This document shows positions 5,758-45,719 of a stretch of DNA of 47,580 bases, one piece after another. Each line of letters opens with the position of its first letter. The first letter of the stretch is position 1. The position numbers and the translations under genes were made by a program. The notes under the pieces are model-generated. The model had not been told where the DNA came from and did not search any database. It was given only the letters and a program-made list of their open reading frames with translations. Source of the stretch: a virus; the IMG/VR virus record IMGVR_UViG_3300009152_000066, positions 1 through 47,580 of that record; one strand, 5' to 3'.

Positions 5758-5788
5758 TGTAATTAAAGTAAATTTTTTATCTTTATTT

Positions 5789-5820
5789 ATAGCCTACCTA
5801 TTTAGGGTAGGCTATTTTTC
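5789..5820 (+). terminator. Rho-independent terminator after tail tube
   Basis: A 10-bp perfect inverted repeat (ATAGCCTACC / GGTAGGCTAT) with a 7-base loop is followed by TTTTTC. It ends the sheath-tube transcript and directly abuts the TATAAT box of the next gene. Confidence 0.9.
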
Positions 5821-5826
5821 TATAAT
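5821..5826 (+). promoter_or_regulatory. Putative -10 box 5 nt before a start codon
   Basis: TATAAT lies between the terminator stem and the ATG at 5832, with 5 bases (AAGTT) between box and ATG and no Shine-Dalgarno. If used as a -10 element, the transcript would start at or beside the ATG. No clear -35 element was seen because that area is the terminator. Confidence 0.5.
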
Positions 5827-5831
5827 AAGTT

Positions 5832-8333
5832 ATGAAGTATTTTAATCAGATCTTAGATAAATATAATTCCTTGCATGAGCAGTATTCTGAGGATCCAGCA
5901 GCCATAGCTAGTGCTAACGAGTTAATAACCTCAGTTAAGTCTAGTGGTAATCCAGCACCAATAAAAGGAAATATAACTTTACAAAGAACTGAAACTGGCG
6001 GCATATCAATATTTGGATTAGGTGCCTTCCCAATAACGGTAATTGAGGATACTGGTCAAACAAATGAAAAAGGTTTTAAAAAATTAGTAGGATTATTATC
6101 TAAGTATAGTGATTTTATTTATGATGGCCCAAGGCAGGAATTATTACTTGGACAACAGCCTGACCAAGGGCAACCTCTAGGTAAGGGTGGTGCAAAGTTC
6201 CCATATTTCCCAAATGCATATGTTGCGAATCCCAAAAAAGTAAAGAATACATTAGAAAAAATTTGTAAAGACGAAGTAGATAAAATAAATAGCAATGATG
6301 AACTTAACAAGAAGCAGAAAACTGAAGCTATTCGAAAATCAAATCAGTCTTGCTCTAAGTTAATAAATGAAACAGACAGGTTAGTAAATGATAACCGTGG
6401 TTCCATAGCTCAAACCCTTGACGCATCTCAAAGATTACTATTTGGATGCGAAGAAGATAATATTGAACAGTGTGAAACTAAACAAGAGGATACTGCTAAA
6501 TCAATAGAGCATAGAAATTCAGCATTCTATGCTATTCAGGATGCTATGAATACTTTAACTGATGCACAAAGAAGAGAAAATAAAATGCTTACTTTGGAAG
6601 AGTGTGCATCATTAAAAAAATCCATAAGTATTACTGGTGGAAAGATGGGTGGAAAGTCTAGGACTTTAGCTATCACTGGTCCTGACGGGAATGGCATGGT
6701 AGTCTTTCAGGAAAGAACAACATTTTTGGCTGACGCATTAACTACTTTAGCAAAAGATGTTAAATGTCCTGATGGATCACCATTTGAATATGAGTCAAAT
6801 ACGGTAGAGTTTTTGACCTCTAACGGAGTAGGTCAATCCACAGGGTCTACTTTGAAGGGTTTTTTCTTTGAAGACTTAAGAGCAGCAATTTCCACTTTAA
6901 AAGACTGTCAGGCAGCAGGAAGACCTCAGGGAGAATGTGACCGGGAAGCATCACAACATCTATTAAGATGGCTTAAAACAAAAGATAACTTATTAAATGC
7001 TATGAGAGACTTGCTAGCTAGGATCAAAGAGAGTGGCGAGTTAGCAGTCGAGTTAGACGATGAGCGGGGAATAAGCTTTATTAATGATTTCCTTAGTAGA
7101 ATATCAGGAGATCTAGAAGCTAGCGAAGAAATGTTAGCTACATTTAACATTATGGCTAGAACCGCAGCACTGGGTGTGTCAGAAAGATCTCCAGCTAAAG
7201 TTGAAAAAACAGGAAACATCACTGGCGGGGGCAAGAAAGCAGACATGACAGAGCATTATAGAACACCAGAGGAAGCAGAAGCTGCGGCAGATAAAATGAA
7301 GTTGTCGCCAGAGCAAAGAAAATATATTAAAGTAAGAAAAGTTACTGATAAGGTAGGTAACACTACCTATGTCCTGGGGGACAGTGTAAAATTTTCATCA
7401 GACGTAGAAAAAATTTATGCTGGGCAAGCTGCTAGATCAAACATTAAAGATGCTATTAGTAACCCAAGGGAAAGTAAAGACTGGTTTGATGCTATGCACG
7501 AAGTTGGTATAACTCCAAAAGATATAACAGCAATTGGTTCGTCTATAAAAGAATTTGAAAGTAATTTAAAAACATTATTAAACTTAGAAGAAGTCGAACA
7601 ATATAAAACAAAGGACGGAAAAAGAATAGCTGTAAATCAAAGAGCCCAAGCTGCGGAAGAAATAACGCGAGCAATAACTGAACAATTAGGAGTAGACTCA
7701 CAAATTTCTCAATCAATGATTGGGGATTTAAAGAAATTGATAGAACAAGAAAAACCCTGGGAAGAAATATCTGGATTTATAGCAGACAAGATATACAAAG
7801 CAAAATTAGAATCGGGATTATTGTCTGATAATCCCCAAGCAGCACTTAACCAGATAGCAACATTTGGAGCTTTCGGAGGCATATCCTCGGATGGATGTTT
7901 CCTTTCCGCAGCAGATGGCCCTAAAGGGAGAATGCATACTTCAGCTCAAAATTATCATATAGAGAGAATGAAGAAAAGATTAGATGAAATAGGTAAACTA
8001 CCTGTGGAGCAGAGATCAAAACTTGTAGAAATGAATTCTAAAAGTATAAACATTAAAGATGATAGCGATCCACCAAAAACAATTTTTACTGTGGTATTAG
8101 ATCAGATGAATGTGGATACCGTCTTTGATGGGGAAGACGTAGTAAAACATTCTAAGGTAACTTCGATCAAGCAGGGAGAACAACCTAAAAATCTAAAAAA
8201 TATAAATGCACAGGAGCAGCCAGAGAATGCATCCACAATTATAGATCGGGACCAACTAATGAAATTCTTAGTCGAGCAGAAGACTACGCTGGACAGGATG
8301 ATCAGCATCATAGCCAGAGATGGTCTGAATTAA
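5832..8333 (+). CDS. Large protein of unknown function (833 aa)
   Basis: Not recognised. The N-terminal 110 residues include a beta-rich part (ITLQRTETGGISIFGLGAFP), the centre (about 140-480) is helical and charged with scattered cysteines, and 500-700 is again helical. No signal peptide, membrane segment or nucleotide-binding motif was found. The C-terminal 90 residues are polar and probably disordered. It lies alone between the tail module and the minus-strand nuclease, whose 3' end overlaps it by 26 bp. Size and location suggest a virion or internal protein, but this is inference. Confidence 0.8.
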   Translation: MKYFNQILDKYNSLHEQYSEDPAAIASANELITSVKSSGNPAPIKGNITLQRTETGGISIFGLGAFPITVIEDTGQTNEKGFKKLVGLLSKYSDFIYDGPRQELLLGQQPDQGQPLGKGGAKFPYFPNAYVANPKKVKNTLEKICKDEVDKINSNDELNKKQKTEAIRKSNQSCSKLINETDRLVNDNRGSIAQTLDASQRLLFGCEEDNIEQCETKQEDTAKSIEHRNSAFYAIQDAMNTLTDAQRRENKMLTLEECASLKKSISITGGKMGGKSRTLAITGPDGNGMVVFQERTTFLADALTTLAKDVKCPDGSPFEYESNTVEFLTSNGVGQSTGSTLKGFFFEDLRAAISTLKDCQAAGRPQGECDREASQHLLRWLKTKDNLLNAMRDLLARIKESGELAVELDDERGISFINDFLSRISGDLEASEEMLATFNIMARTAALGVSERSPAKVEKTGNITGGGKKADMTEHYRTPEEAEAAADKMKLSPEQRKYIKVRKVTDKVGNTTYVLGDSVKFSSDVEKIYAGQAARSNIKDAISNPRESKDWFDAMHEVGITPKDITAIGSSIKEFESNLKTLLNLEEVEQYKTKDGKRIAVNQRAQAAEEITRAITEQLGVDSQISQSMIGDLKKLIEQEKPWEEISGFIADKIYKAKLESGLLSDNPQAALNQIATFGAFGGISSDGCFLSAADGPKGRMHTSAQNYHIERMKKRLDEIGKLPVEQRSKLVEMNSKSINIKDDSDPPKTIFTVVLDQMNVDTVFDGEDVVKHSKVTSIKQGEQPKNLKNINAQEQPENASTIIDRDQLMKFLVEQKTTLDRMISIIARDGLN

Positions 8334-8868
8334 ACTTTCTTGTGTAAGAAAGTATATCTCCAAGTCTGCACACAATATAAGTCTTACCTTGAGTTTTGAG
8401 TTGAAGATAATCTAAACTTAAAGCTTTATCTGCTAAAGTTAAATTATCATCCCTACTGAACAAGCATAAAATATCTTTCCGATCTTGCTGGAACACGATT
8501 AAAAATTGTTTTTGGATTTTGCTTGCATCTCGTTCGGCCTGGAAGATAAAATTCTGAAGTTCAGATTTCAGATTAAATATTGATCCAAGATTTTCTTTAT
8601 TATAACCTTTCTTACATTCTATAATAAACCTAAAGTTCTTAGGTGTTATTAGATCTCCACTAAACTTTAGATGATCAGGCAACTTATGAGTCGTAGAGAA
8701 TGCACCAGAACCTGGGGATCTCATGAACTCGGTAGTATTAAAATGAGTATTAAGTATATGACAAACTTTACGCTCAAATGAATTACCTTTTGTTCTACTA
8801 TTCTTACGCTTCTTTTTGTTGGCGATTAATGAAGTGAGATCGAAATCATCTTGAATTTTTTTGGTCAT
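8308..8868 (-). CDS. PD-(D/E)XK nuclease, possible Holliday-junction resolvase
   Basis: A 186-aa protein on the minus strand. Residues 28-36 (GNSFERKVC) supply the first acidic helix. A loop with RSPGSGAF is followed by SGD around residue 71 and IECKKG around residue 86, forming the E-...-GD-...-ExK core of Hjc/RecU-like PD-(D/E)XK enzymes. The N-terminus is very basic (KKKRKNSR). A resolvase role would replace T4 gp49, but a different nuclease of this fold is equally possible. The ATG is 5 nt after a minus-strand TATAAT and has no Shine-Dalgarno. It converges on the 833-aa gene. Confidence 0.65.
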   Translation of the reverse strand: MTKKIQDDFDLTSLIANKKKRKNSRTKGNSFERKVCHILNTHFNTTEFMRSPGSGAFSTTHKLPDHLKFSGDLITPKNFRFIIECKKGYNKENLGSIFNLKSELQNFIFQAERDASKIQKQFLIVFQQDRKDILCLFSRDDNLTLADKALSLDYLQLKTQGKTYIVCRLGDILSYTRKFNSDHLWL

Positions 8869-8869
8869 G

Positions 8870-8882
8870 CCCTATTATAGGG
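8870..8882. promoter_or_regulatory. Palindromic bidirectional promoter candidate
   Basis: CCCTATTATAGGG is a near-perfect palindrome centred at 8876. It sits exactly between the divergent starts of the minus nuclease (ATG, 8868) and the plus gene (GTG, 8884), one base from each codon. Read leftward it contains TATAAT, read rightward TATTAT, each 5 nt from its start codon. Confidence 0.55.
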
Positions 8883-8883
8883 A

Positions 8884-9198
8884 GTGTCAAAGATTAAACT
8901 AAATGTTTCCGATTGGAAAATATCTACAACCGAAAGATCGAGAGGACGTATGAAAGTAACTATTAAATTGAATAAGGATGAAGCTGAAGGCTTCAAAAAT
9001 TGGTCTACCCATGTTAAGCCTGATGAGCTTTCACAAGAAGATTTCGTCAAGCAAGTATTTTTTAACGGCATCGAATACTTGAATCTCAAGTTGCAAGATG
9101 TTGCTAAGAAGATTATGGAGGATGCCAACCTCCGTCAACAGCTTGAGGCTTCGGGTATTAATGTTCAATCCATAGAAGAGAAGATGAAGCAGCAATGA
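8884..9198 (+). CDS. Small helical protein of unknown function
   Basis: A 104-aa protein from GTG 8884, the start suggested by the shared palindromic promoter. An internal ATG at 8950 with AGAGGA just before it would give 82 aa (MKVTIKLNKDEAEGF) and may be the main start. The body is acidic and helical, with segments such as DELSQEDFVKQVFFNGIEYLN. No enzyme motif is visible. It overlaps the next gene by ATGA, so the two are probably translated together. Function unknown. Confidence 0.75.
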   Translation: MSKIKLNVSDWKISTTERSRGRMKVTIKLNKDEAEGFKNWSTHVKPDELSQEDFVKQVFFNGIEYLNLKLQDVAKKIMEDANLRQQLEASGINVQSIEEKMKQQ

Positions 9199-9557
9199 GT
9201 TTCCCACGTAGCGTAAAATCTCACGACAAGTTTAAGTATCTGATGGACTGCATCGGACGGATTGAAAATGGCGATCCTGCGTTGCCAAAATTTATCCGAG
9301 TGCTGTTTTACACTCCTTGGGATAAGGCTGCGAAGAAGATTAAGGGCTACGATTGCCGCATTAATCTCTTCGATGTCCCAGAGGCTTTTCATGAGATGGT
9401 CGATTGGGTAGGTGAAGGTAACTTCAAGCAGAAGCACCTTAACTATGTTCCGACCCTAGTAACTTTTAGATATGGTGGCGATGAGAACTCACCGCTTCAA
9501 GTAGAAGTTAACGACAACCCGACTGCGATTCAATACGAGCTTGGATCCAGAGGGTGA
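9195..9557 (+). CDS. Hypothetical protein
   Basis: A 120-aa protein not recognised. It starts in an ATGA overlap with the previous gene. It is rich in aromatic residues and Lys/Asp, with a mixed alpha/beta look (residues 35-60 FIRVLFYTPWDKAAKKIKGY). It has no membrane segment or metal motif. Its last 28 bases overlap, tail to tail, the minus-strand sigma-like gene. Confidence 0.75.
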   Translation: MSFPRSVKSHDKFKYLMDCIGRIENGDPALPKFIRVLFYTPWDKAAKKIKGYDCRINLFDVPEAFHEMVDWVGEGNFKQKHLNYVPTLVTFRYGGDENSPLQVEVNDNPTAIQYELGSRG

Positions 9558-9892
9558 ACATTAATTCCAAACTTAAATTCAAAGTAGGACTCTAACTTCA
9601 ACCTGTGCCGCTTAATTTTAGTGGCAACTAGCTTTAAGTTATTAACTATTACCGTGGTGAAGTAATTGAAAGCCGACCCATTTTTCGGGTTGAAGTTTCT
9701 TAGAGTCCGTAGTATAAGGAGGAAGCAATCTTGTTTTGCGTCCTCCTTGTCTACTTTAAAGTGGAATGCGTCTATGATGTTTGAGATGAGGGCATCGAAA
9801 CTCTGCATGAGTTCCTCGTCTTGCGAAAAATCCCCCGAACAGTGAAGCTTAATTAATTCCTCAAACCTTTTATTATTAATATAATTAGACAC
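9530..9892 (-). CDS. 55: Late sigma factor candidate (T4 gp55-like)
   Basis: A 120-aa minus-strand protein from a GTG start. Residues 47-97 (DKEDAKQDCFLLILRTLRNF, then NPKNGSAFNYFTTVIVNNL and KIKRHR) follow the sigma region-2 pattern of gp55 proteins: acidic helix, FNP turn, aromatic F-YFT strand, basic helix. T4 gp55 is 185 aa, so this is short but still covers the core that binds RNA polymerase and the TAAATA box. The GTG lies 6 nt after a minus-strand TATGAT. Its targets would be the TAAATA promoters found here. Moderate certainty; a second sigma-like gene lies at 43813. Confidence 0.55.
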   Translation of the reverse strand: MSNYINNKRFEELIKLHCSGDFSQDEELMQSFDALISNIIDAFHFKVDKEDAKQDCFLLILRTLRNFNPKNGSAFNYFTTVIVNNLKLVATKIKRHRLKLESYFEFKFGINVHPLDPSSY

Positions 9893-9906
9893 AAGGTAAT
9901 CATAGT

Positions 9907-10935
9907 ATGAGAATCCTGCCTGATCCGTTTAAGTTGCAAAATAATTCCTGCAACGGATGTTCCATCCTTGAGAAGAATAAGCCATGCCATTCGATTATGG
10001 ACCACGAAGAGGAGGGTTTCCCAAACGAATGCTCCATCCTGTTCGTGTCCGAATCGTTTAAGATGGAGTTCGGGGAGCTTACCCCGTTCACCAGCAAGGA
10101 GGAGGCTTTGATTGAATCCGCCATCGAGAAGGCTGGGTTCAAGCATCTCCTAGGATCCGTGGAATACACGGCTGCGGTTAAGTGCCCAAGCGTTAAGGAC
10201 AAGGACATGTCCAAGGACGATAAGGATATTTGCCGTCAGCACATCGCTAGGACGATAGATAAGTGCAAGCCTAGCCTGATCTTCGTGTGTGGAAATCTTC
10301 CCATGGTGATGCTGACCAAGAAGTCTGGCATCATGAATAAGCGTGGTAAGATTATCGACCACTACGAGGGAATCCCTGTGGTGCCGATCTATAATCCAAC
10401 TCAGGTAATCGTTGAGCCTCAGAACGACTACCTGTTCTCCTTGGATATCCAGAATGCCATCGAACAGGTTCTAGTTAAGGCTGATGTTAACTCGGAGTTC
10501 ACCTGGATCATGATCGACGATATCCTTAAGCTGTGGGGCCTCGATACCTACACTCGGTTCGATGTAGCTATTGATATCGAAACTACTGGCTTGGACTTCC
10601 TTAAGGATAAGATTCAAACCATCGCTCTTAGTTTTGATATGGGTGACAATAAGCAATACACTGTCACCATCCCTGTGCATCATCCAGAGTTCGTTCAGCC
10701 CAAGGGTTGGATCACTGAGGTGGTAGACTTCCTCAACCGTGTATTCAGGAACCATACGGTTAAGGTCCTGCACAAGGCTCAGTTCGATCTTAAGTTCCTA
10801 AAGCAATTGGGGGTTGAAGTGAGAGGTGTAATCTCCGATACCAAGATCATGCAGCACCTGATCGACGAGAACCTCCCTAAGAGCTTGAAGGATCTTGTAG
10901 GTTATTACTTCCCCTCAGAGCAAGGCATCATCTAA
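9907..10935 (+). CDS. UDG-like domain fused to 5' part of PolA 3'-5' exonuclease (split DNA polymerase, part 1)
   Basis: A 342-aa protein. Residues 1-190 resemble Fe-S uracil-DNA glycosylases (families 4/5): C15-x2-C18 and C93-x15-C109 give four possible cluster ligands, with KPSLIFVCGN and a late YNPTQV loop. Residues 218-342 are a DnaQ-type proofreading exonuclease with Exo I D223/E225 in AIDIETTGLD and Exo II D294 in HKAQFDLKFL. The Exo III Asp is absent here and found in the next ORF. Phage SPO1 polymerase also has a UDG-like N-terminus. The stop overlaps the next start (TAATG), so the parts are probably made together and assemble. Confidence 0.85.
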   Translation: MRILPDPFKLQNNSCNGCSILEKNKPCHSIMDHEEEGFPNECSILFVSESFKMEFGELTPFTSKEEALIESAIEKAGFKHLLGSVEYTAAVKCPSVKDKDMSKDDKDICRQHIARTIDKCKPSLIFVCGNLPMVMLTKKSGIMNKRGKIIDHYEGIPVVPIYNPTQVIVEPQNDYLFSLDIQNAIEQVLVKADVNSEFTWIMIDDILKLWGLDTYTRFDVAIDIETTGLDFLKDKIQTIALSFDMGDNKQYTVTIPVHHPEFVQPKGWITEVVDFLNRVFRNHTVKVLHKAQFDLKFLKQLGVEVRGVISDTKIMQHLIDENLPKSLKDLVGYYFPSEQGII

Positions 10936-11441
10936 TGTTAGGACAAGATGGAAAGAAAGTAGATTGGGCCAACATGCCCTTGCCTATGATGGCAAGAGGT
11001 AATGCGCTCGATGCCTACTTCACTCTTAAGATCTTCAAGAAGCTCAGTCGTAAGATTGACGAGCTTAGAATGACCAACACCTACTACAAGCTCATCGCCC
11101 CTTCGATTAACATGTTCGTCAACATGGAGGTTGATGGCATGCTTATCTCGCAGCCCAAGGTGGATGAGCTTGGCAAAGGTCTTAAGACTGATATCGAAGA
11201 GAAGGAGGAGTCCATGTATTCCTACTCTGAGATCCCTGATAAGACCATGCAGGTAACTTCCACTGATGATCTAATCAAGATCCTATACTCAGTGGACAAG
11301 AAGCTGAACATAGTGGATATGGGATTTGGCTTGTTCCCACCTATCTCTTCTGATAAGACCAACGCACCGAGCACAAGCGCAGAGGCTCTGGACATTCTCT
11401 TGGAACAGCTTGAAGAGGAGATAAATAGACGCAATGGTTAA
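10935..11441 (+). CDS. Split family A DNA polymerase, part 2 (end of exonuclease and thumb)
   Basis: A 168-aa protein. ARGNALDAYFTLKIFKKL (residues 20-37) matches the Exo III region of PolA proofreading domains, with D26 as the third catalytic acid; the usual Tyr of this motif is Asn. NMEVDGMLIS (around 65) is the start of the PolA polymerase domain, and the end (NAPSTSAEALDILLEQL) matches the thumb segment before the palm. It has no activity motif of its own, so it makes sense only as the middle piece of a three-part enzyme. It overlaps part 1 by one base and part 3 by eight. Confidence 0.8.
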   Translation: MLGQDGKKVDWANMPLPMMARGNALDAYFTLKIFKKLSRKIDELRMTNTYYKLIAPSINMFVNMEVDGMLISQPKVDELGKGLKTDIEEKEESMYSYSEIPDKTMQVTSTDDLIKILYSVDKKLNIVDMGFGLFPPISSDKTNAPSTSAEALDILLEQLEEEINRRNG

Positions 11442-12528
11442 TCGCTTTGAAAAGCTAGAGCAGGACAAGAAGATCTCTCAGTCCGTAATCCGAGCGTTGC
11501 CTGATGACAAGCTCGTAGGTGCTAGAGACTTCATCAAGAGACTGCTTGAGTTCCGCAAGAGCAAGAAGCTCTACGATACCTACATCACTGGTGTGAAGAA
11601 TGCGATGAAGTATAACGAGACTAATCGCATCTACGTTGAATACCGAATCGACGGGACTGTGACTGGTCGTCTATCCAATGCTGGTCTTGATGGCAACGAA
11701 GGCAACAAGATGGGTATCTCGTTCCATACTCTACCAAGAGAGACTCAGTTCAATATCCGTGATTATGTCATAGCTCCTCCAGGGCATAAGTTCATCACTG
11801 CGGATATGAAGAGCATGGAGCTACGCATCCTGGCTCACCTAGCCAAAGAGAAGAACATGGCGCGAGCGTTCAATGAGCGTATGGACCTCCATACCTACTC
11901 AGCCTCGCTCACGTTTGCGAAGCCCATGGAGAAGGTCACTAAGGAGGAGCGTCAGATTGCAAAGGCTGTGAGCTTCTTGACGGTGTATGGTGGCACTGAG
12001 AAGACCCTGGCAATGAAGCAGGGTATCAGCTTCAAGAAGGCTAAAAACATTATTGACGGGTGGATGGCTGCGTTCCCTGGCGTTCCGAGATACATGCAGC
12101 ACGTAGATCAGTTCATTACAAAGAATCAATATGCATACACTATTTTCGGTCGCCGTCGTAATCTGCCTAACGCTGCCTCTGAGGCACAGTATATTCGTCA
12201 GGAGGCTTTTAGGCAGGGGCTCAACTTCACAGTTCAGTCTTCAGCTAGTGATACCCTTCTATGCTGCCTCTTGGGAATGGATGCTGAATTTAAGCAACGT
12301 AAGATGAGCACTAAGATCGTGGCTACGGTTCACGACTCAGTAGAATTAATCTCGCCCGACAATGAGGTAGAGGATGCAATTAAGATCCTCCACCACCATA
12401 TGATCGAGTATCCTTACATCAAGGAGCACTTCGGTATTAAATTCTCCGTTCCCCTGGAGATTGAGATTATGGTTGGAAGTTCGTTCGGATCAGGGGAGGA
12501 GTATCATATCAGCAGTCCCACTTCCTGA
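11434..12528 (+). CDS. polA: Split family A DNA polymerase, part 3 (palm and fingers)
   Basis: A 364-aa protein carrying the polymerase active site. TGRLSN lies near residue 77. Motif A is TADMKSMELRILAHL (D124), motif B is R173-x3-K177-x7-YG (the Phe of E. coli position 762 is F181), and motif C is VHDS (D301). The residue after the catalytic motif-C Asp is Ser, where PolA enzymes normally have Glu. The fragment lacks thumb and exonuclease, which are in the two upstream ORFs. This is the only polymerase seen and is PolA type, not the family B enzyme of T4. It ends in a 20-bp tail-to-tail overlap with a minus gene. Confidence 0.93.
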   Translation: MVNRFEKLEQDKKISQSVIRALPDDKLVGARDFIKRLLEFRKSKKLYDTYITGVKNAMKYNETNRIYVEYRIDGTVTGRLSNAGLDGNEGNKMGISFHTLPRETQFNIRDYVIAPPGHKFITADMKSMELRILAHLAKEKNMARAFNERMDLHTYSASLTFAKPMEKVTKEERQIAKAVSFLTVYGGTEKTLAMKQGISFKKAKNIIDGWMAAFPGVPRYMQHVDQFITKNQYAYTIFGRRRNLPNAASEAQYIRQEAFRQGLNFTVQSSASDTLLCCLLGMDAEFKQRKMSTKIVATVHDSVELISPDNEVEDAIKILHHHMIEYPYIKEHFGIKFSVPLEIEIMVGSSFGSGEEYHISSPTS

Positions 12529-12911: not shown

Positions 12912-13319
12912 TCAGCCTCCTTTACGCTTTCTCAAAATCTTTTTCATTAATTCTAGACGAGGTTTATTTTCCTGTCCGCCGCCAGGGCCGTCAGTGCTGA
13001 GAGGACGAACGGGGGTGGTTCTAGCCTTTTGCTTATCTGGGCCCTTGGATATATCCCCAGTTCTCGCCCGCTCGCCACCACTTGCTCCCGCTTGCTGGGG
13101 TGGTAATTCTTTTGTTCCTTCAGGAGGAACAAATTCTTTTTGGTGAAAATTTTTCTTACCGTTATTTTTTTTTGGTTTATTTCCAGGGTTAGATGATCCA
13201 CTTTTCTTTCCAGCATTTGGGTCCCCAGTGTCTCTAGGGTCGGTGTCTTCCTCTTCATTTAATCTTAGTGAGATTAATTTCTGGGCAACAGCTTCCACAA
13301 TTCTATCTAAAATATCCAT
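12912..13319 (-). CDS. Disordered Gly/Pro/Lys-rich protein
   Basis: A 135-aa minus-strand protein. The first 22 residues form a helix (MDILDRIVEAVAQKLISLRL); nearly all the rest is low-complexity Gly/Pro/Lys/Asn, ending in a basic helix (LELMKKILRKRKGG). Such helix-tail-helix proteins may be virion or scaffold-associated, but no family is recognised. An AGGAG site and TATAAT lie directly upstream on the minus strand. It is the first gene of the two-gene minus unit. Confidence 0.65.
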   Translation of the reverse strand: MDILDRIVEAVAQKLISLRLNEEEDTDPRDTGDPNAGKKSGSSNPGNKPKKNNGKKNFHQKEFVPPEGTKELPPQQAGASGGERARTGDISKGPDKQKARTTPVRPLSTDGPGGGQENKPRLELMKKILRKRKGG

Positions 13320-13354
13320 AATTCTCCTATTATAACAATATTATATATCCCCTT
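13320..13354. promoter_or_regulatory. Divergent promoter region between minus operon and thyX
   Basis: Thirty-five AT-rich bases separate two divergent starts. Leftward, TATAAT (13334-13329) is followed by AGGAGA and the minus start. Rightward, TATTAT at 13339 precedes the thyX ATG by 10 bases, with no Shine-Dalgarno on that side. Confidence 0.45.
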
Positions 13355-14137
13355 ATGACTCAAATAGATTACTTAAAAGACAAAATAAGTTTAATTTCCA
13401 TCGTGGATAAGATGGAAACGGACCCCGCACTTAAAGTAACTAACTCAGCTAGGATTAGTTATAATAAAATTAAGTCCGAGTTTGACGAGAAGGATAAAAA
13501 CTTAACTTCTTTTTTGTGGAAGCATGAGCATACTAGCCCATATCGGCATTCTTATTTTACCTTCCACATTAAGATGCCTCTGTTCGTAGCCCGCCAACTG
13601 ATGAAGTATCAGGTCGGATCTGGGTTTAGGAGCTACGAGGTTGACGGGAAGGAAGTTAGCCTAGAGATCTTTGATCACTTCTACGACTCGGATAAGGGCT
13701 GCTCCTGGAATGAGATCTCAGGTAGATACACCTCAACCTCGGATGAGTTTTATATCCCCAAGGAATTAAGATCCAATCCACCTCACGGCAATAAGCAGGC
13801 GAGCGAGGAGTATGTTAATCCTTTAGATCCGTATCGTATAGACTTCCTACACCCACAAGAGATTCTTTATCGTATGCGAACCCAAGCTAACGAAGCTAAG
13901 GGATTCTACAATAAGATGATAGCTAACGGGGTTGCGAAGGAGATTGCCAGGATGATCCTACCCCAAAATATTTACACGGAATGCTACTGGACTTTGAGCC
14001 TTCAAGCTATTATACACTTCCTGCATCAACGTCTCAAGCCAGACGCTCAATACGAAATTAGAATGTTGGCCGAAGGCGTCTACACACTAGTAAAAGATAC
14101 TTTAGATAAAATAGGACTTAACAAAGAGGATCTATGA
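13355..14137 (+). CDS. thyX: Flavin-dependent thymidylate synthase with an insertion in the signature motif
   Basis: A 260-aa protein that converts dUMP to dTMP using FAD and methylene-tetrahydrofolate. HEHTSPYRH (57-65) and FTFHIKMPLFVARQL (68-82) are typical ThyX, as are the C-terminal LPQNIYTECYWT and HFL-x11-AQYEIR. The RHR-xxS-xNExSxRY signature is altered. RHR is KYQ (84-86), and about 28 extra residues (90-117) lie between S89 and W-NEISGRY (119-125). The remaining residues are intact, so the enzyme is probably functional. T4 uses ThyA; ThyX is the form of many marine phages. It works with the dUTPase and deaminase at 36644-37682. Confidence 0.9.
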   Translation: MTQIDYLKDKISLISIVDKMETDPALKVTNSARISYNKIKSEFDEKDKNLTSFLWKHEHTSPYRHSYFTFHIKMPLFVARQLMKYQVGSGFRSYEVDGKEVSLEIFDHFYDSDKGCSWNEISGRYTSTSDEFYIPKELRSNPPHGNKQASEEYVNPLDPYRIDFLHPQEILYRMRTQANEAKGFYNKMIANGVAKEIARMILPQNIYTECYWTLSLQAIIHFLHQRLKPDAQYEIRMLAEGVYTLVKDTLDKIGLNKEDL

Positions 14138-20894: not shown

Positions 20895-20918
20895 AAGTTA
20901 ATATTTAATCACATCTGC

Positions 20919-20924
20919 TATAAT
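20919..20924 (+). promoter_or_regulatory. Extended -10 promoter 5 nt before a start codon
   Basis: TGCTATAAT is an extended -10 element. Five bases (ACAGT) separate TATAAT from the ATG at 20930, and no Shine-Dalgarno is present, so a leaderless transcript is likely if it is used. Confidence 0.55.
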
Positions 20925-20929
20925 ACAGT

Positions 20930-22808: not shown

Positions 22809-22818
22809 ATTTTTAGGC

Positions 22819-22824
22819 TATAAT
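22819..22824 (+). promoter_or_regulatory. Putative -10 box heading the glycan cluster
   Basis: TATAAT, preceded by GGC, lies directly after the terminator and 7 bases before the ATG at 22832. There is no Shine-Dalgarno between them. Confidence 0.5.
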
Positions 22825-22831
22825 ATCTGAT

Positions 22832-45708: not shown

Positions 45709-45713
45709 AGAGC

Positions 45714-45719
45714 TATAAT
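45714..45719 (+). promoter_or_regulatory. Putative -10 box 6 nt before a start codon
   Basis: TATAAT preceded by GC lies 6 bases before the ATG at 45726 in an 17-base gap, with no clear Shine-Dalgarno. A transcript from here would run into the tRNA cluster. Confidence 0.5.

Follow-up and report, generated by a model that had tools for sequence, protein, structure and literature searches.

How are two divergent genes expressed when little besides a palindrome separates their start codons? The question is raised by a locus in a virus record of IMG/VR (47,580 bases, part of a larger genome) that we analyzed over its whole length (termed the window). Comparison of the window with annotated phages gave no match at the DNA level and only distant protein matches.

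The intergenic palindrome and its conservation

Along the plus strand, the locus reads CAT (8866 to 8868, the ATG of the minus-strand gene), G (8869), the palindrome CCCTATTATAGGG (8870 to 8882), A (8883), and GTG (8884 to 8886, the start of the plus-strand gene). Direct reading thus confirmed the description in the initial annotation of a 13-base palindrome between divergent starts, with one extra base on each side and a TATAAT-like box 5 nt from each start. The features of the region are the following.

8308 to 8868, minus strand: PDDEXK / RusA-like Holliday junction resolvase gene (PHROG 244, E 3.5e-20; Pfam PDDEXK_15, E 8.9e-26)
8870 to 8882, no strand: 13-bp palindrome CCCTATTATAGGG
8872 to 8880, no strand: conserved core CTATTATAG (general form CTATNATAG), the putative bidirectional promoter element P1
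8873 to 8878, plus strand: -10-like box TATTAT of the plus-strand gene, ending 5 nt before GTG 8884
8874 to 8879, minus strand: -10-like box TATAAT of the minus-strand gene, ending 5 nt before ATG 8868
8884 to 9198, plus strand: gene A, 104 aa, starting with GTG and conserved together with the site, without a recognised fold
9195 to 9557, plus strand: gene B, 120 aa, overlapping the end of gene A
9530 to 9892, minus strand: gp55-like phage sigma factor, region 2 only, 120 aa, candidate promoter reader (profiles and structure model)
9897 to 9905, minus strand: second site P2, CTATGATTA, half degenerate, its -10 lying 6 nt from the GTG start of the sigma gene; some relatives have the complete palindrome here

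The N-terminus of gene A, counted from the GTG, is conserved in relatives, and an ATG at about 8950 to 8951 is disfavored as the true start. The internal methionine M23 (about 8950) is kept without exception in 22 homologues, many of which have AGAGGACGT before it; a second, shorter product from an internal start is possible. Fold comparison of gene A gave nothing clear (best Foldseek E 0.32, to Fis; best Z 4.4), and the idea, formed by eye, of a ribbon-helix-helix repressor was dropped, the model consisting of two strands plus helices. Gene B is probably in the same transcript as gene A. Further along, at 9907 to 12528, three adjacent ORFs of 342, 168, and 364 aa appear to make up a split family A DNA polymerase; uracil-DNA glycosylase-like and 3'-5' exonuclease domains lie in the first.

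The window contains a single exact copy of the 13-mer. Perfect 13-nt palindromes with a 1-nt center number 18 in the window versus a mean of 14.5 in shuffled sequences, so that the palindrome by itself is not significant; its significance comes from its core being kept in relatives. We collected these by a protein search with the resolvase, not by motif, which yielded 80 loci, and scored the upstream region in 75 of them. Exact CTATNATAG was found between the resolvase and the divergent gene in all 75 (a count over related phages, not over independent events), at resolvase identities of 44 to 100% and with A, T, G, or C as the central base. When 11 clusters at 70% identity were each reduced to one representative, the 8 specified bases were invariant and all other positions from -25 to +33 varied. 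Only near-identical relatives have the outer CC/GG pairs in common. The search for the palindrome in related phages, proposed in the initial annotation as a check, therefore upheld the core but not the outer pairs, and it is the 9-mer CTATNATAG rather than the 13-mer that is conserved.

A phage-wide class of sites near start codons

We then surveyed nine contigs of the group, including the window, for similar sites; as these contigs are related to one another, the counts below do not represent independent events. The motif CTATNATA was found 65 times within 40 nt upstream of gene starts, 31 of them at 5 to 8 nt, versus 10 and 3 for the reversed motif. Among 280 rearrangements of CTATAATA, the true order ranked top at 4 to 8 nt from starts (17, with 6 for the next, an overlapping word, and a mean of 0.28), and in the window alone CTATAAT scored 6 versus a mean of 0.11. 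When the flanks of TATNAT were left free, C was found at -13 in 47/70 sites and A at -6 in 47/70 (background, 18% and 27%), giving the consensus CTATWATA; the 70 sites showed no signal for a -35 element. Four sites in the window illustrate the class.

5820 to 5827, plus strand: predicted one-way promoter CTATAATA, 5 nt between its -10 and ATG 5832 of an 833-aa gene; same layout in 8/9 contigs
20918 to 20925, plus strand: predicted one-way promoter CTATAATA, 5 nt between its -10 and ATG 20930
22818 to 22825, plus strand: predicted one-way promoter CTATAATA, 7 nt between its -10 and ATG 22832 of a glycosyltransferase-like gene
45713 to 45719, plus strand: one-way promoter-like CTATAAT, 6 nt before ATG 45726

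In 8 of the 9 contigs, a predicted promoter of the class lies 5 to 6 nt before the ATG of the long gene that follows the tail tube gene. At 5785 to 5832, a terminator-like hairpin (GCCTACC...GGTAGGC, then TTTTT) abuts the CTATAATA site and the ATG of the 833-aa gene, a fusion also seen in contigs G003, G007, and G008. Another divergent pair of the window (12912 to 13319, minus strand, and 13355 to 14137, plus strand, ThyX-like) has two separate, nonsuperposed -10-like boxes in its 35-nt spacer (13320 to 13354). The leaderless class was rejected as a genome-wide feature of the 595-kb phage LR756511, where it is sparse in 150 kb (6 TATNAT at 4 to 8 nt versus 5 in the control). A distant resolvase homologue of that phage (L129, 5989 to 6003) is preceded by CTATGATAT, 5 nt from its -10 to the ATG and not palindromic.

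Shine-Dalgarno sequences were found at 1/40 starts with the motif at 4 to 8 nt, at 14/26 with the motif at 12 to 30 nt, and at 201/538 without it. A motif at 4 to 8 nt together with a near absence of Shine-Dalgarno sequences is a signature of leaderless or near-leaderless mRNAs. As in the leaderless mRNAs of bacteria and phages, there is no Shine-Dalgarno sequence and the -10 box lies just upstream of the start codon (spacing peak at 5 to 8 nt); the difference is that a single 9-bp element here seems to serve two leaderless starts.

The spacing at the two flanking genes differs between lineages. In most clades, gene A starts 5 to 8 nt past the -10; in the others the distance is 12 to 22 nt (once 39), often with a Shine-Dalgarno sequence. 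The resolvase starts 5 to 6 nt past the -10 in the clade of the window, in L008, and in L056/L061, and 16 to 22 nt past it, usually with a Shine-Dalgarno sequence, in most other relatives. Double leaderless control would thus be limited to some lineages, whereas the shared promoter is predicted in all of them. Of the earlier proposal that both mRNAs are leaderless, the part concerning gene A stands: its spacing in most clades and its lack of a Shine-Dalgarno sequence strongly support a leaderless or near-leaderless start. For the resolvase, such a start is plausible in the clade of the window, but most relatives appear to have a leader. A -10 placed 5 nt before the start codon would put the usual +1 on the second base of that codon; initiation would therefore have to occur 1 nt earlier than usual. 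In E. coli, GTG serves less well than ATG as the start codon of a leaderless mRNA.

Two probable superposed promoters and their candidate reader

We consider it likely, from the sequence comparisons, that the site works in both directions as a phage promoter with a -10 element only, formed by two superposed CTATWATA, with messages starting at or near the two start codons. The invariant core, the phage-wide class, and the recurrence in IMG/VR described below give good support to the shared bidirectional promoter that the initial annotation had put forward. In the mechanism we propose, two octamers would be superposed exactly on opposite strands at one site. C-13 of one promoter is then G-5 of the other, and the palindrome CTATNATAG is forced. 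G at -5 was found in 4/43 class sites without a divergent neighbor versus 15/27 with one, so the symmetry is a property of the divergent arrangement, not of the promoter as such. RNA polymerase, probably with the phage gp55-like sigma factor, could bind the site either way round, in one orientation at a time, and would begin transcription about 6 to 7 nt past the box, with a timing that we infer to be late. The two starts would be about 16 to 18 bp apart, at or beside both start codons, and the resulting mRNAs would be leaderless or nearly so for gene A and, in the clade of the window, for the resolvase as well.

The protein encoded at 9530 to 9892 is the likely reader of the CTATWATA promoters. 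Among its 16 aligned homologues, all match Sigma70_r2 (best 8.3e-6) and 10 match a phage late sigma PHROG (best 3.2e-5). Its structure model (pLDDT 85.5) matches sigma region 2 structures, including T4 gp55 (7d7c_F; 112 residues aligned, Z 10.0, rmsd 3.1); a Z near 10 is modest for a helical protein, but the match list is nonetheless made up of sigma factors. A sigma factor with region 2 only fits promoters without a -35 element. The same two-way promoter might instead be read by the main sigma factor of the host, and might then be early and not late, as TATAAT is the host consensus too and bacterial sigma-70 promoters can be bidirectional in the same geometry. We regard this as rather unlikely, since the class lacks a -35 signal, sigma-70-type sites nearby occur only at chance level, C-13 and A-6 set this phage class apart, and the gene for the region-2-only sigma lies about 1 kb from the site.

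The initial annotation had also assigned the palindrome a role as operator. If that were its main function, a dimeric regulator, perhaps gene A, would bind it to repress both genes, the promoters merely coinciding with it; the perfect symmetry, the strict conservation, and a conserved small gene that always adjoins the site would suit such a regulator. Superposed promoters fully explain the symmetry, however, the scarcity of G-5 in one-way promoters of the class speaks against a separate operator, and the same palindrome is found at other gene pairs without gene A beside it. No DNA-binding fold or family was recognised in gene A. A mainly operator function seems improbable, and a separate operator role lacks support. 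That closely spaced divergent genes enclose a palindrome by chance, for which the abundance of 13-nt palindromes in the window could speak, is extremely improbable: conservation rules it out for the core, which is invariant in all scored relatives while the flanking positions are all saturated, and chance is retained for the outer CC/GG pairs only.

Recurrence at other gene pairs and relation to known systems

We next scanned IMG/VR with the pattern CATNNNCTATNATAGNNNATG and, as a control, with the reversed core, 120 stretches being listed for each. At least 12 among the 120 matches listed had ORFs on both sides (11 with each ORF of at least 100 aa), versus 1 among the 120 listed for the control (0 with each of at least 100 aa). 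The recurring pairs were the gp55-like sigma factor with DNA polymerase and the terminase large subunit with a glycosyltransferase; the sigma/polymerase site of the window, P2, is half degenerate. In L172 (5826 to 5846), a single CTATNATAG separates divergent genes for a terminase large subunit and a glycosyltransferase-like protein, each start codon lying 3 nt from the site, and this layout recurs in several IMG/VR contigs.

Bidirectional promoters of bacteria have been described by Warman, Grainger, and colleagues (PMC12825309, PMC10268837): their -10 elements are near symmetric, and their starts are most often 18 bp apart. The bidirectional phage promoter proposed here shares with them a single symmetric -10 element for both orientations, in which -7T and -11A coincide across strands, and a predicted start spacing of 16 to 18 bp. 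It differs in its perfect symmetry (CTATNATAG), kept through deep phage divergence, in its phage consensus, and in having start codons at the predicted starts.

T4 late promoters carry TATAAATA at -13 to -6 (PMC1524935). The octamers of the class likewise occupy -13 to -6, without a -35 element and with a region-2-only phage sigma factor encoded nearby, but their consensus is CTATWATA and not TATAAATA. With the register the same and the sequence different, we do not call the site a T4 late promoter, although it would work like one. The T4 motif itself was rejected as the late motif of this phage, occurring only twice in the window. We know of no T4 late promoters that are two-way palindromes. 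A search of the open-access literature, which leaves most subscription papers outside, found no comparable phage case.

A wider proposal, which we hold about evenly balanced between true and false, is that widespread uncultured myophages use a dedicated gp55-like sigma factor and leaderless, -10-only promoters, with one 9-bp palindrome serving as both promoters at several divergent core gene pairs (resolvase/gene A, late sigma/DNA polymerase, and terminase/glycosyltransferase) and start codons a few nucleotides away on each side.

The bidirectional promoters recently described in bacteria mostly have imperfect symmetry, whereas the symmetry here is perfect and unchanged across deep divergence. 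A 9-bp element adjoining start codons offers a natural system for testing how polymerase chooses its orientation, and the site lets one study two leaderless genes that may share an element as well as the sequence read by a divergent gp55-like sigma factor. The motif may also be used for promoter prediction in a large group of uncultured phages. If our reading is correct, the site would be, to our knowledge, about the shortest control region of two genes, and an unusually compact switch acting on both simultaneously, in which the orientation of polymerase would couple the two outputs.
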